From the NCBI GenBank assembly GCA_944324915.1, contig CALUYD010000003.1, forward strand, positions 1 to 64,000: a DNA stretch of 64,000 nucleotides, read 5' to 3'. The notes beneath the pieces were generated by a model, which worked only from the letters and a program-made list of their open reading frames with translations, ran no database searches and was not told the DNA's origin. Below, piece after piece: positions 280 to 55,754 of the stretch; within the stretch, counting starts at the first letter, position 1; every line of letters begins with the position of its first letter. The DNA comes from Candidatus Gastranaerophilales bacterium (lineage in GTDB: Bacteria > Cyanobacteriota > Vampirovibrionia > Gastranaerophilales > Gastranaerophilaceae). A program made the translations under genes and the position numbers.

Positions 280-356
<77 letters not shown>

Positions 357-379
357 ATATTTAATTTTCATTGATAACT

Positions 380-409
380 ATATTATGCGCCCTAAATTTA
401 AAAAATCAA
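380..409 (-). promoter_or_regulatory. Promoter of tRNA-fMet
   Basis: Read on the minus strand, TTGATT (404-409) is followed after 18 bp by TAATAT (380-385). Transcription would start near 373, about 17 bases ahead of the mature tRNA. Assigned by position and match to sigma-70 consensus only. Confidence 0.5.
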
Positions 410-467
410 GTACCAAACTAGCAAATAAAAAAATTCAGAAGTTTTGTATAACAAAAACGAGGAAATA

Positions 468-1718
468 ATGAAAATAACAAAAATATCATCAAGTGAGAAA
501 AGACCTTATATACACTCTATTTTAAACACGTATTCCAAAAACTATATCCAAAACTCATACGAAATTCATAACGTACATGCTCCAAACAATCCAAAATATT
601 ATCAGGTTTTTAACAACATAAGTTTTGGCTCAAATGCGCATTTTTATGCAATAACAAAAAGAACAAGTAAAGGCACAAGTGTTGTAATTCAAATTCCAAC
701 AGAAAATGAAGATAGAATAAAACTTGAATTTAGTCCTCAAGAAGCAGGTATTTTTTTAAATGAAAATGACATTATAGACAACAAAATGGTTGAAACTTTT
801 GTCGAGATATACACAAAATTCTACACAGTACAAAAAGAAAAACACGAAGAAGAATCAAAACTTTTAAAAAGAATAATTCAAGAAAGTTCAAAAAATAAAG
901 TTATAGTAATAGATAGAGAAATCGATAATGAAAGCCTAAGAACATTTAAAGGAGTTTCTGAAAATAATTTCATTGAAGCCTATTTATCAAACATACAAGA
1001 CGATTTAAGAAGAAAAGAAATCGCTGAATCATTTCTTGAAAAAAACGAAAAGCGCTATGCGAAATCAATCCATTCAGCTGGAAAAACAGCTCTTTATTTA
1101 ATGCATTTATCTAAAACAAATAATGGTATCGATTTATCAGATTTTGATAAAAAAGCAGAAATAGTTACATCAATAGTTGGTTTTGGTGAATCTTGCGAAG
1201 GTGATTATTTTAAAGAATTAATTGAAAACTCGAAAGATGAAAACGGGAATTTTGATATAGATTTATGTCATAAAATTTCAGAATTATTGCCAACCGTTTA
1301 TTATAGCCCAACTCCAAAAGAAGATATTGAAAATATAGCTCAACGCATTGAATGTTTAAAAGATAAAGACCCCAAAAATTTTGAAAAATCGTACGAAGCA
1401 CTTTTGAATATGGCAGAAATAGGAATAATAAAACTTTCCTTATATTCTGATAATTTTAATCAGTTTTTAAATCTGTTTAACCCTAAAACAGGAGTATTCG
1501 AAGAACAAACAATACCGTTGTTGATTGATTTTACCGATAGTTGCCTTGATTGGTATAGCGATAATGTACAAGAAGTGGATGAAGAAAATGCAACTGAATG
1601 CGCAGAATACATCCAAACAATGGCAAATGAATATTTTTCCCTAATAAGAGATTATCAAACAGGGGAAATAATAGAAAACCCATTAAGTATAGGTGATTTT
1701 TTCAATGCATACACATAA
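468..1718 (+). CDS. Unknown protein with N-terminal ISFG tag
   Basis: The product is 416 aa with no family I recognise. ATG 468 is chosen because GAGGA (459-463) sits just ahead of it; a start at 444 has no such site. Residues 51-54 read ISFG after a polar, Asn/Tyr-rich leader, a tag that recurs in other unknown proteins here. The rest is charged and probably helical (Lys/Glu-rich around 120-200), with no signal peptide or membrane segment. The gene stands alone between tRNA-fMet and the UDP-sugar operon. Function unknown; probably a lineage-specific soluble protein. Confidence 0.8.
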   Translation: MKITKISSSEKRPYIHSILNTYSKNYIQNSYEIHNVHAPNNPKYYQVFNNISFGSNAHFYAITKRTSKGTSVVIQIPTENEDRIKLEFSPQEAGIFLNENDIIDNKMVETFVEIYTKFYTVQKEKHEEESKLLKRIIQESSKNKVIVIDREIDNESLRTFKGVSENNFIEAYLSNIQDDLRRKEIAESFLEKNEKRYAKSIHSAGKTALYLMHLSKTNNGIDLSDFDKKAEIVTSIVGFGESCEGDYFKELIENSKDENGNFDIDLCHKISELLPTVYYSPTPKEDIENIAQRIECLKDKDPKNFEKSYEALLNMAEIGIIKLSLYSDNFNQFLNLFNPKTGVFEEQTIPLLIDFTDSCLDWYSDNVQEVDEENATECAEYIQTMANEYFSLIRDYQTGEIIENPLSIGDFFNAYT

Positions 1719-1765
1719 AACTATGCAAACAAAAAAGTTTATAATAAAATCTATATAGAGGTTTT

Positions 1766-2689
1766 ATGAAAACTATTTTAATAGCAGGAGGCGCAGGGTT
1801 TCTAGGTTCAAACCTATGCAAAAAATTAATTAAAGACAATATTGTAATTTGTCTCGATAATTTAATTACGGGGAATATGGCAAACATAATACCATATTTA
1901 GAAAGCCCTAACTTTAAATTCATTAAACATGACATCATTAATCCAATTGATATTGAAATTGATGAAATATATAATCTAGCATGTCCCGCATCTCCGATAC
2001 ATTACCAAAAAGACCCAATTCATACTCTTAAAAGTTCAGTTTTTGGAATATATAACCTGCTTGAACTTGCAAAAAAATATAATGCAAAAATTCTTCAAGC
2101 ATCAACAAGCGAAGTATATGGAAATCCGCTTGAACATCCGCAAAAAGAAAGCTATTTTGGAAATGTAAACATAAATGGACCCAGAAGCTGTTATGACGAG
2201 GGCAAAAGATGTGCTGAAAGCATTATGTATGAATACAATAAGCAATATAACACGCAAATCAGAATAGCAAGGATATTTAATACATACGGCAAAAATATGC
2301 AAAAAGATGACGGCAGAGTTATCTCAAATTTTATAATTCAGGCGCTAAAAAATGAAGATATAACTATTTATGGAGATGGCTTGCAAACACGCTCTTATTG
2401 TTATGTTGATGATTTAATTGACGGTCTTATAAAATTAATGGCATCAAACATAACAACTCCAACAAACCTTGGAAATCCAATTGAATACACAATTTTAAAA
2501 ACAGCAAAAATAATTATTTCAAAAACAAATTCTCAATCAAAATTAATTTTCAAAAACCTTCCAATAGATGACCCTCAAAAAAGAAAACCTGATATTTCAA
2601 AAGCAAAAAAAGAGCTTAATTGGGAACCCAAAATCAGCCTAAACGAGGGACTTGATAACACAATTTCATATTTCAAGGAGATTATATAG
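1766..2689 (+). CDS. uxs: UDP-glucuronate decarboxylase (UDP-xylose synthase)
   Basis: This short-chain dehydrogenase/epimerase-fold enzyme (307 aa) converts UDP-glucuronate to UDP-xylose with bound NAD. It has the Rossmann motif GGAGFLGS (residues 8-15), ACPASPIHYQ and STSEVYGNP near 110-118, the catalytic YDEGK where epimerases have YxxxK, and the family signatures GPRSCYDEGKR, ARIFNTYG and DDGRV. Length is normal for bacterial UXS. A GAGGT ribosome site precedes ATG 1766. The next gene, UDP-glucose dehydrogenase, begins at the base after the stop and supplies its substrate, so the two form an operon for UDP-xylose. A UDP-glucuronate 4-epimerase is less likely given these signatures. Confidence 0.9.
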   Translation: MKTILIAGGAGFLGSNLCKKLIKDNIVICLDNLITGNMANIIPYLESPNFKFIKHDIINPIDIEIDEIYNLACPASPIHYQKDPIHTLKSSVFGIYNLLELAKKYNAKILQASTSEVYGNPLEHPQKESYFGNVNINGPRSCYDEGKRCAESIMYEYNKQYNTQIRIARIFNTYGKNMQKDDGRVISNFIIQALKNEDITIYGDGLQTRSYCYVDDLIDGLIKLMASNITTPTNLGNPIEYTILKTAKIIISKTNSQSKLIFKNLPIDDPQKRKPDISKAKKELNWEPKISLNEGLDNTISYFKEII

Positions 2690-3973
2690 ATGAATATATG
2701 TGTCTTTGGAATAGGTTATGTTGGGTTATGTGCTTCAGTTTGTCTTGCACAATTAGGTCATAATATTGTTTGCATAGATAAAGACAACAAAAAAATCGAA
2801 AACCTTAAAAATAATATTGTGCCTATTTTTGAGCCAAAATTAAATGAATTGATTTTAAAAAATAAAAATAAATTAATTTTTAAGACAAATTTAGAAAATA
2901 ACGAAAAAAATTTCGATATTTTTATAATAGCAACAGGAACACCAACCCAAAAAAACGGAGAGGTTGATTTATCAGCAATATATAATGTTGCAGATGAAAT
3001 TATTAAAAATTGCAAAAATAATTCAATTATAATCAATAAATCAACCGTACCAATCGGATTTAATAACAAATTACAAGATTATATAAACGCTAAAACTAAT
3101 TTAAAATTAGATGTAATCTCAAACCCTGAATTTTTAAGACAAGGAAGCGCAATAGATGATTTTTTAAATCCGGAGCGAATTATAATTGGATATAAATCTG
3201 ATTTTGCTTTAAAAAAAGTACTTAAAATGTATAAAGCACTAAATTTGAAAGATGAACAAATTATAACAACTGACCTAAATTCTGCTGAAATGATTAAATA
3301 TGCATCAAATTCATTTTTAGCATTAAAGATTTCTTTTATTAATGAAATATCAAAACTTTGCGAAAAAACCAATGCTGATATTGAATATGTTAAAAAAGGA
3401 CTAACAAGTGATTCAAGAATAGGAAAAAAATTCCTAAATTGCGGTATAGGCTTTGGCGGAAGCTGTTTTCCAAAAGATACAAAAGCTCTTGTTAATATTG
3501 CAAATAACTACGATATTGAGCTAAAAACAATTAAAGCAACAATTGAAGCAAACGAAGCTCAAGTTGATTATTTTATTAATAAAATTATTAATTTTTACAA
3601 AGGAAATATAAAAGATAAAACATTTATCCTATTGGGATTATCTTTTAAGCCAAACACTAATGATTTAAGAGAAGCGCCAAGCATTAAAATAATAGATAAA
3701 TTGACTGATTTAAATGCAAATATAATAGCATACGACCCAAAAGCAAAGTATGACAAAGTTAAACAAGTAAATAAAATCAATGATGCATTTAATGACGCAG
3801 ATTGCCTTATTATAGCAACAGAATGGGAAGAATTTAAAAATATAGATGTTGAGTTACTAAAAAAACTCAAAGATAAAGTCATTTTTGACGGTAGAAATAT
3901 ATTTATAAATAGAAATTTAAAAAAATACGGACTAAAATATTATTGTATAGGTAAAAATGAACAACAAAATTAA
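2690..3973 (+). CDS. ugd: UDP-glucose 6-dehydrogenase
   Basis: The enzyme oxidises UDP-glucose to UDP-glucuronate using two NAD+. The 427-aa product has the N-terminal Rossmann motif GIGYVGL (7-13), the STVPIGF segment, and the catalytic-cysteine motif GFGGSCFPKDT near residue 257, followed by the C-terminal UDP-binding domain with GLSFKPNTNDLREAPS. Length is typical. ATG 2690 directly follows the uxs stop, so the two are translationally coupled, and the 3' end overlaps the next gene by 17 bases. It feeds the decarboxylase and probably glycan or LPS assembly. Confidence 0.93.
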   Translation: MNICVFGIGYVGLCASVCLAQLGHNIVCIDKDNKKIENLKNNIVPIFEPKLNELILKNKNKLIFKTNLENNEKNFDIFIIATGTPTQKNGEVDLSAIYNVADEIIKNCKNNSIIINKSTVPIGFNNKLQDYINAKTNLKLDVISNPEFLRQGSAIDDFLNPERIIIGYKSDFALKKVLKMYKALNLKDEQIITTDLNSAEMIKYASNSFLALKISFINEISKLCEKTNADIEYVKKGLTSDSRIGKKFLNCGIGFGGSCFPKDTKALVNIANNYDIELKTIKATIEANEAQVDYFINKIINFYKGNIKDKTFILLGLSFKPNTNDLREAPSIKIIDKLTDLNANIIAYDPKAKYDKVKQVNKINDAFNDADCLIIATEWEEFKNIDVELLKKLKDKVIFDGRNIFINRNLKKYGLKYYCIGKNEQQN

Positions 3974-54777: not shown

Positions 54778-55179
54778 TGATTTCCTCCAATAACATTTAC
54801 ACACTATTACCTATATATTTATAAAAACTATTTTTTTAAAATAATTGCCTTTTTGTTGTTAATGATTAATTTATGTGAAGTTATATATTATTTTATGTTA
54901 TATTTAACTAATTATCTTTCGTGCACATTGCTTGACAATAATAGCATTTTTTTTGACATTTGTCTTACATTATTTAGTTTAGATGATGTTTTTTTATAAT
55001 TATTTTAGTAAAGATAATGAACATTTAGTGTTATTTAGAAATTTTAAATTAACTTTTCTTAACAAAAAATATCACTTTTTTTATATTTATGCATACGATT
55101 AAAATTTAGCATGATAATTCAAATTATAAATTAGCCTTAGAGTATTTCAAAAGGATTATAATTATAACAAACAAGATTG
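54778..55179. other. AT-rich intergenic stretch
   Basis: About 400 bases very rich in A and T, with several TTGACA-like hexamers (for example near 54931 and 54949) but none at a convincing distance from a -10 box. It must contain the promoter of the HEAT gene on the minus strand. No coding frame or hairpin with a T-run is seen. Confidence 0.5.
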
Positions 55180-55218
55180 AAGTCGGGCAATAAAAAACTC
55201 TCCATATAGGAGAGTTAA
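55180..55218. repeat. Direct repeat copy A (terminator hairpin)
   Basis: These 39 bases are identical to 55354-55392. They contain the hairpin AACTCTCC/GGAGAGTT (55196-55203, 55209-55216) with an A-run on its left, so on the minus strand it is a terminator copy. Beyond the identical part, GCCAGACTTGA (55232-55242) also recurs in the T-arm of tRNA-Leu (55404-55414). Confidence 0.85.
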
Positions 55219-55353
55219 ATGCTACTCTATCGCCAGACTTGACGAATGTTGTTTGTGAGCTAGGGCGAACAACTAACAACATTCGATACCGCAAAGCGGT
55301 AAACCATAGGTCTTAGCTTTTGCTTTTGCAAAAGTTTAGAGCTATGTAAGTGA
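55219..55353. other. Structured noncoding element between direct repeats
   Basis: This 135-base stretch holds a perfect 11-bp inverted repeat (55243-55253 and 55275-55285, 21-base loop), the hairpin ACCGC-AAA-GCGGT (55288-55300) and the palindrome CTTTTGCAAAAG (55323-55334). On the minus strand it would end in terminator copy A. It includes a decayed piece of tRNA-Leu T-arm. It could be an RNA gene, a mobile-element or attachment-site remnant, or tRNA-processing debris. No promoter is evident. Confidence 0.5.
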
Positions 55354-55392
55354 AAGTCGGGCAATAAAAAACTCTCCATATAGGAGAGTTAA
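55354..55392 (-). repeat. Direct repeat copy B, terminator of tRNA-Leu
   Basis: Identical to 55180-55218. The hairpin (55370-55377 and 55383-55390) lies directly past the tRNA CCA end and is followed on the minus strand by six T. It is the working terminator for tRNA-Leu. Confidence 0.85.
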
Positions 55393-55482
55393 TGGTGCCC
55401 TGGGCCAGACTTGAACTGGCACGAAGTTATTAGCCTCATCGGATTTTAAGTCCGACGTGTCTACCGATTCCACCACCAGGGC
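55393..55482 (-). tRNA. tRNA-Leu (TAA)
   Basis: A 90-nt class II tRNA on the minus strand: acceptor GCCCTGG/CCAGGGC, anticodon loop CTTAAAA giving TAA, a long variable arm (GAGGCTAATAACTTC), T-arm with GTTCAAGTC, and an encoded CCA (55393-55395). Confidence 0.95.
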
Positions 55483-55547
55483 ATTTATAAAATTTTCAAA
55501 TATTACAAACTTTGCTTGTTAATCTTACAATAAAAAAATTCTATTGT

Positions 55548-55754
55548 CTAGTTATTTTTTTCTAAAATTTCATTCATAGCGTCAACCATCTCGTCAACGT
55601 CTATCCCATGCACTTTTGCGCCTGCTTCTAAATTTTCAAATCTGGCAGCAGCACATCCAATACAGCCCATGCCATATTTTGCAAAAACTTCTAAAGTTTC
55701 AGGATGTTTAACAACTATATCCATTATGCCCATATCTTTTGTGATTTTTTCCAT
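55548..55754 (-). CDS. DUF1858 domain protein
   Basis: The 68-aa product matches the small DUF1858 domain: ITKDMGIMDIVVKHPETLEVFAKYGMGCIGCAAARFENLEAGAK, with the conserved CxGCxxA pair. These domains are linked to redox or hybrid-cluster-like biology and often occur alone. AAGG precedes ATG 55754. Downstream lies tRNA-Leu; upstream, across 142 bases with no evident gene, the DUF151 gene, both on the same strand. Confidence 0.88.
   Translation of the reverse strand: MEKITKDMGIMDIVVKHPETLEVFAKYGMGCIGCAAARFENLEAGAKVHGIDVDEMVDAMNEILEKNN

Follow-up and report, generated by a model that had tools for sequence, protein, structure and literature searches.

The window, by which we mean the whole 64,000-nucleotide stretch of Candidatus Gastranaerophilales bacterium DNA (genome G000) that was analysed, carries a tRNA-Leu(TAA) gene on the minus strand at 55393–55482 (ARAGORN; Rfam RF00005, 60.6 bits). 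The gene is intact, with an encoded CCA and a restored 3' end. Read along the minus strand, it (55482–55393) is followed by a terminator plus 9 nt (55392–55354), a 111-bp hairpin-rich stretch (55353–55243), a copy of part of the tRNA T-arm (55242–55232), a decayed acceptor end (55231–55219) and a second 39-bp terminator block (55218–55180). The inserted DNA amounts to about 150 bp and contains no gene, and thus no integrase of its own.

A first-pass annotation had described a 39-bp repeat that recurs 174 bp away, and it is present as described: an exact 39-nt direct repeat lies at 55180–55218 and 55354–55392 with a spacing of 174, its two minus-strand copies being 100% identical. The proximal copy (55354–55392) joins an intrinsic terminator to the left end of the inserted element. 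Its terminator, TTAACTCTCC-TATAT-GGAGAGTTTTTTATTGCCCGACTT on the minus strand, is canonical, with the hairpin AACTCTCC/GGAGAGTT followed by T6. The repeat closes with 9 nt, GCCCGACTT (55354–55362, minus strand), that match the T-arm sequence AAGTCTGGC of the tRNA in inverted form at 8/9 positions; they are part of the element and not of the native terminator. Because both copies of the 39-bp repeat carry GCCCGACTT, the locus looks like the leftover of a former array of at least two units.

Between the copies, the inverted repeat, hairpin and palindrome pointed out earlier are real and resolve into three minus-strand hairpins. Hairpin 1 (55305–55346; CATAG...CTTTTGC AAAA GCAAAAG...CTATG) and the small hairpin 2 (55287–55301; TACCGC TTT GCGGTA) were defined by folding and alignment. 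Hairpin 3 (55243–55285), which abuts the displaced tRNA end, was recognised from an inverted repeat with 14-nt arms (55243–55256 and 55272–55285, 93% complementary) and from a weak match to a family model, R1; it resembles hairpin H2 of the sister family described below. Its apex reads TTGT-TC-GC-CCTA-GC-TC-ACAA, and the TC/TC internal loop is present in most H2 hairpins of that family. The 174-nt unit as a whole folds at -64.5 kcal/mol, compared with -34.3 +/- 4.3 in shuffled sequences (z = -7.0).

The right junction of the element is the displaced T-arm copy TCAAGTCTGGC (55232–55242, minus strand), identical to 11 nt of the tRNA T-loop and T-stem. It is followed by GATAGAGTAGCAT (55219–55231, minus strand) where the intact gene has CCAGGGCACCAT, so that both the T-arm copy and the degraded acceptor end noted beside the distal repeat are indeed there. 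The distal copy of the repeat (55180–55218, minus strand) again consists of the terminator and GCCCGACTT, and the DNA beyond it is, by alignment, ordinary intergenic sequence that is also found in relatives with an empty site. When the window and the interval 55000–55600 were searched against Rfam at a low threshold, the tRNA alone reached its gathering score. Weak matches to AaHKsRNA82, SpF41 and Phe_leader fell far under theirs and were rejected as terminator look-alikes.

Occupied and empty sites in related genomes

Homologous elements were sought in 97 genomes and were found behind the same tRNA in three congeneric Gastranaerophilales genomes, namely G008, G001 and G013. The element of G008 is 88% identical to the window copy and has most of the decayed acceptor in common, with near-identical decay; this shared presence and decay also fit vertical inheritance after one old insertion. 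The elements of G001 and G013 are 77–78% identical to the window copy, and both still have, as the displaced copy, an undamaged 3' end of the tRNA with acceptor and CCA, TCAAGTCTGGCCCAGGGCACCA, followed by a terminator. Among G000, G008 and G001, the aligned window hairpins differ by double substitutions. For example, the outer stem of hairpin 1 reads CGCAG/CTGCG in G001, a set of double changes, and hairpin 2 reads ACCTG/CAGGT, with the changes compensated.

In four other genomes (G002, G003, G020 and G023) the site is empty, and the tRNA is followed directly by its terminator and conserved intergenic DNA. From the first bases onward, the DNA past the distal copy in G013 is 91% identical to what immediately follows the tRNA at the empty site of G003; the interior of the element has no match above background at the empty sites (alignment). 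Tandem units may continue beyond the assembled sequence, since the contigs of G001 and G013 end inside the repeat with an overlap of about 75–77 bp, which suggests further copies. With regard to the tRNA gene itself, CCA is encoded in some species of the genus and not in others (loci L018–L047), and all four element-bearing genomes fall in the CCA-encoding group. One further congeneric metagenome-assembled genome, G016, has the same sequence as the window upstream of its tRNA-Leu (L031, contig C7), and this contig, which stops right behind the tRNA, is likely to be contamination or to come from a strain of the window's species.

The strain comparison proposed in the first-pass annotation yields both states, and, taken together, they give the classical picture of a tRNA attachment-site duplication and support the reading that had been suspected: intact duplications occur in G001 and G013, the site is empty in four genomes, and comparable elements lie behind many other tRNAs. 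The other reading in the same annotation, in which a second tRNA had decayed and become a structured RNA gene, is not supported, as the tRNA 3' end alone is duplicated and the inserted DNA is absent from the empty sites. Transfer RNA 3' ends are common attachment sites at which insertion leaves direct repeats, such as the 44-bp tRNA-Arg repeat of SSV1 (PMC3293823). The same background would also suit a larger tRNA-Leu prophage or genomic island that has lost its genes, integrase included, and has left behind attL, attR and a short internal piece, a reading on which the other tRNAs of the genome bear directly.

Recurrence behind other stable-RNA genes

A total of 41 tRNAs were located in G000, of which 36 had enough downstream sequence and 32 could serve as upstream controls. 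The criterion was an exact copy of at least 11 nt from the last 32 nt of the tRNA itself, within 800 bp. Such a copy lies downstream of nine of the 36 tRNAs (Val, Phe, Arg-TCT, Arg-ACG, Leu-TAA in the window, Leu-TAG, Ser, His and Leu-GAG) and upstream of none of the 32; two further controls, the opposite strand and the 5' half of the tRNA, each gave 1/36. Most copies are 100–230 bp away. The spacing at tRNA-His is 730 bp, long enough for a small gene; this unit (L179, contig C14) closes with 15 nt copied from the 3' end of tRNA-His and apparently has a small ORF on the opposite strand. An inverted T-arm copy directly behind the terminator is stronger at tRNAs with a displaced 3' end (Mann–Whitney p = 0.0006, 10 vs 27).

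Direct evidence that modules move between tRNAs is given by tRNA-Val (contig C5) and tRNA-Leu-TAG (C6) of G000, which are followed by the same unrelated non-coding module joined to an H2 hairpin. A second tRNA-Val(TAC) in this genome (L171, contig C31, positions 9–84) has a hairpin element of another type. Behind it, at 308–3765, are McrB-like and McrC-like genes of 732 and 419 aa, judged by sequence alone, so that hairpin elements and larger defence islands appear to share tRNA sites.

The sister family was reached through hairpin 3. Its 22-nt core in the window, TTGTTCGCCNTAGCTCACAAAC, recurs next to tRNA-Arg in G006, and a version with 2 mismatches is present in G012; the G012 element belongs to a family of about 100 bp with two conserved hairpins, H1 and H2. 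BLAST detected this H1-H2 family in 36 of 383 genomes. With a covariance model, 55 genomes out of 382 in the class were positive, and 54 of the 55 belong to the bacterial family of the window; a genome has up to 10 copies. The family often forms tandem arrays of constant unit (164, 156, 237, 173, 160 and 159 bp), the lengths of which are uncertain because the genomes are fragmented, apparently short-read metagenome assemblies. The hosts are Val, Leu, Met, Pro, Arg, Tyr and Gly tRNAs, 5S rRNA and RNase P RNA. Of the 86 copies examined, 49 are found downstream of a tRNA, no more than 700 bp from its 3' end, 45 of these 49 in the same orientation and mostly 46–60 bp away; reverse-oriented copies occur at Arg, Gly and Tyr tRNAs. 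RNase P RNA and 5S rRNA each have two copies next to them, and the remainder are at contig ends or in other intergenic DNA. At the right junction, 33 of the 40 duplications that could be measured open with the TC that stands at the base of the T-stem; they involve Val, Leu, Met and Pro tRNAs, whose acceptor sequences are unrelated.

The window element itself appears to be an outlier that is weakly related to H1-H2 by sequence. With 14.7 bits (E = 0.18), its match to the family model R1 is the best in the window and coincides with the element, but it is weak and not significant over 64 kb. The element resembles the family in its architecture, in having TC at its right junction and in the TC/TC internal loop. 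Searches of phage and plasmid collections gave no match for the H1-H2 core and, for the window query, matches to tRNA genes alone; pattern searches of IMG/VR returned none or one unrelated coding match.

Some members of the sister family have other surroundings. In G241 (contig C5, L071/L242), a 295-aa ORF lies between two H1 hairpins that are spaced 1409 bp from each other, an arrangement that looks like a gene cassette framed by two sites; by eye, its product is possibly ADP-ribosyltransferase-like. In G027, G026 and G015 (L103, L104 and L101), H1-H2 copies lie away from any tRNA. They are part of extended non-coding DNA between genes, which is rich in GC, full of hairpins and marked by a repeated motif similar to AAGTTCGCCCTGCGAACTAAG; this may represent a broader family of folded repeats.

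The first-pass annotation had held that its reading would fall if no similar element stood beside other tRNAs, and similar elements stand behind many. This recurrence also makes the remnant of a larger island unlikely. A phage-type integrase near tRNA-Met and the McrBC-like pair behind tRNA-Val in G000 do speak for such islands, but independent deletions would not yield the same size, hairpin architecture and junction at many tRNAs, tandem units of 120–240 bp recur, the folds are kept by covariation, and spacings that could bear cargo are exceptional (730 bp at tRNA-His, 1409 bp at L071). Duplication of the tRNA 3' end and terminator by replication slippage or template switching, with no mobile element, could account for the perfect tandem units at tRNA-Phe, Arg-ACG and Ser in G000, and fold-back copying could generate the inverted copy of the T-arm that adjoins a terminator hairpin. 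Yet the modules H1, H2 and X occur at different tRNAs and in different species, beyond the reach of local copying. Moreover, at tRNA-Leu-TAG in two species (L080 and L086) the proximal, element-borne terminator is exactly shared, whereas the distal, presumably native, terminators differ. Such copying is decidedly improbable as the origin of the elements, but may be the cause of array expansion.

Covariation of the hairpins and candidate recombinases

In 27 aligned H1-H2 cores, 90.5% of cells are paired and 126 are double-changed, compared with a shuffled mean of 39.8. The covariation score is 0.423 against 0.179 in shuffled alignments; none of 500 shuffles reaches it, and the signal is lost with slid structures. 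G.T makes up 1.2% of the pairs, as opposed to 6.1% in the acceptor stems of the G000 tRNAs (p = 7e-5; this value, like that for covariation, is optimistic because the copies are related and the counts not independent). The H1-H2 helices have 9 G.T pairs and 17 A.C mismatches, and the tRNA acceptor stems have 16 and 2. Selection on RNA would allow G.U and not A.C, and the counts therefore suggest that the hairpins are selected as folded DNA rather than as RNA. The direction of the result is clear despite the kinship of the copies.

It is on these counts that the RNA-gene reading of the element was rejected. A structured non-coding RNA gene, or a processed tRNA-linked leader, kept by selection and multiplied by local duplication, would go well with the very stable fold, the terminators on both sides, the covariation and the tRNA orientation kept in 45 of 49 copies. 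Besides pairing unlike that of the tRNA control, however, it would have to accommodate the reverse-oriented copies at Arg, Gly and Tyr tRNAs, the lack of a matching Rfam family, and the fact that most relatives do without the element to no evident consequence; we consider it very improbable. Double changes that bypass G.T intermediates could also come from palindrome correction, a point in favour of copying by slippage or template switching.

Candidate mobilising enzymes were sought, and three classes were set aside after none was found in G000. No integron integrase IntI (TIGR02249) exceeded the cut-off in 27 genomes of the genus; a Y1 transposase (PF01797) was absent from G000 and present in 1 of the 27; and no reverse transcriptase (PF00078) was found in G000, G001 or G013. 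The tyrosine recombinases of G000 are a genus-wide Xer-like pair, one protein beside a type I restriction gene, and the phage-type integrase near tRNA-Met, which is cut by the end of contig C32. This integrase was dropped as an evident source of the elements because the nearby tRNA-Met has no duplicated 3' end. In G013, G014, G016 and G021, the Xer-like pair are the only two PF00589 proteins; among these genomes, G013 has the intact tRNA-Leu duplication, and G014 and G021 have elements of the family. Gene-less inserts, missing mobilisers and element-bearing genomes with the Xer-like pair alone lead us to the working inference that the elements are moved in trans, the mover being either Xer or a recombinase that has since disappeared.

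Proposed history and relation to known systems

We consider the segment to be an old insertion of a gene-less, hairpin-bearing integrative element of about 150 bp into the 3' end of tRNA-Leu(TAA), moved in trans, with a probability of about 0.75; the window copy is decayed and probably an immobile relic. The element brings the inverted T-arm copy and the three hairpins; on one side of it the 3' end of the tRNA is left intact, and on the other stands a displaced, partial 3' end with the terminator. A recombinase supplied in trans would have linked the hairpin at the end of the element to the target gene's T-arm. This recombinase probably recognises folded DNA, single-stranded or cruciform, in which case one kind of element could use stable-RNA genes that are unrelated in sequence. 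Arrays would then have arisen by repeated insertion or unequal recombination and decayed, and part of the structure, including the perfect 39-bp repeat, may stem from later gene conversion. A more specific version, in which DNA hairpins act as attachment sites, the T-arm (along with the 3' hairpins of 5S rRNA and RNase P RNA) as chromosomal acceptor, and the reaction is integron-like and possibly catalysed by the host Xer proteins, is put forward only tentatively.

The interest of the locus lies in its setting. About a quarter of the tRNA genes in one small genome bear hairpin-rich, mostly gene-less insertions. Ordinary integrases usually recognise one tRNA sequence, and a single hairpin family at unrelated stable-RNA genes, with a junction set by T-arm position, is hard to explain by them. 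If folded DNA does guide the recombination, the principle known from integrons and CTXphi would extend to a new class of acceptor and open a route to cassette arrays behind essential RNA genes. The hairpin arrays are probably also the cause of part of the breaks that these metagenome assemblies show at tRNAs. This group of folded-DNA elements behind the tRNAs of G000 and many relatives seems to be undescribed; no account of such elements in Gastranaerophilales was found in the open-access literature, which is no proof of novelty.

Among known systems, tRNA-targeting elements (SSV1, genomic islands, IMEs and CIMEs) are alike in inserting at the 3' end, with an intact tRNA on one side, a displaced fragment on the other, and empty sites in relatives. 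The flanking 3'-end repeat of tRNA-site-specific elements is found here as well, partial in the window (11 nt plus terminator) and intact in G001 and G013. The present elements differ in their size of about 150 bp, in having neither integrase nor other gene, in their multiple tandem units, and in that one hairpin family serves many unrelated tRNAs as well as 5S rRNA and RNase P RNA. Tycheposons are likewise associated with tRNAs and integrate recurrently behind many of them, but they are of kilobase scale and carry a tyrosine recombinase and cargo, unlike the small, gene-less window element.

REP/BIME sequences and IS200/IS605-derived palindromic MITEs are also short, palindromic, non-coding repeats in many copies. 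They are set apart by the fixed junction with tRNA genes and the 3'-end duplication seen here, and by the absence of a Y1 transposase from G000 and from 26 of the 27 genus genomes. Integron attC sites and CALINs share with them conserved imperfect hairpins, fixed internal loops, covarying stems, tandem repeats and a junction near the hairpin base. The units described here are instead mostly gene-less and anchored to stable-RNA genes, no IntI rises above the cut-off in 27 genomes of the genus, and the R' box GTTRRRY is absent from the recombination point, the right end being AAGCA-TC or similar. Finally, in some element-bearing genomes Xer-like proteins are the sole tyrosine recombinases found, which recalls the elements that exploit Xer. 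CTXphi, with its folded single-stranded attP, is a precedent for XerC acting on a folded hairpin; integration here is at stable-RNA genes rather than dif, and a role for Xer in moving these elements would be conjectural.
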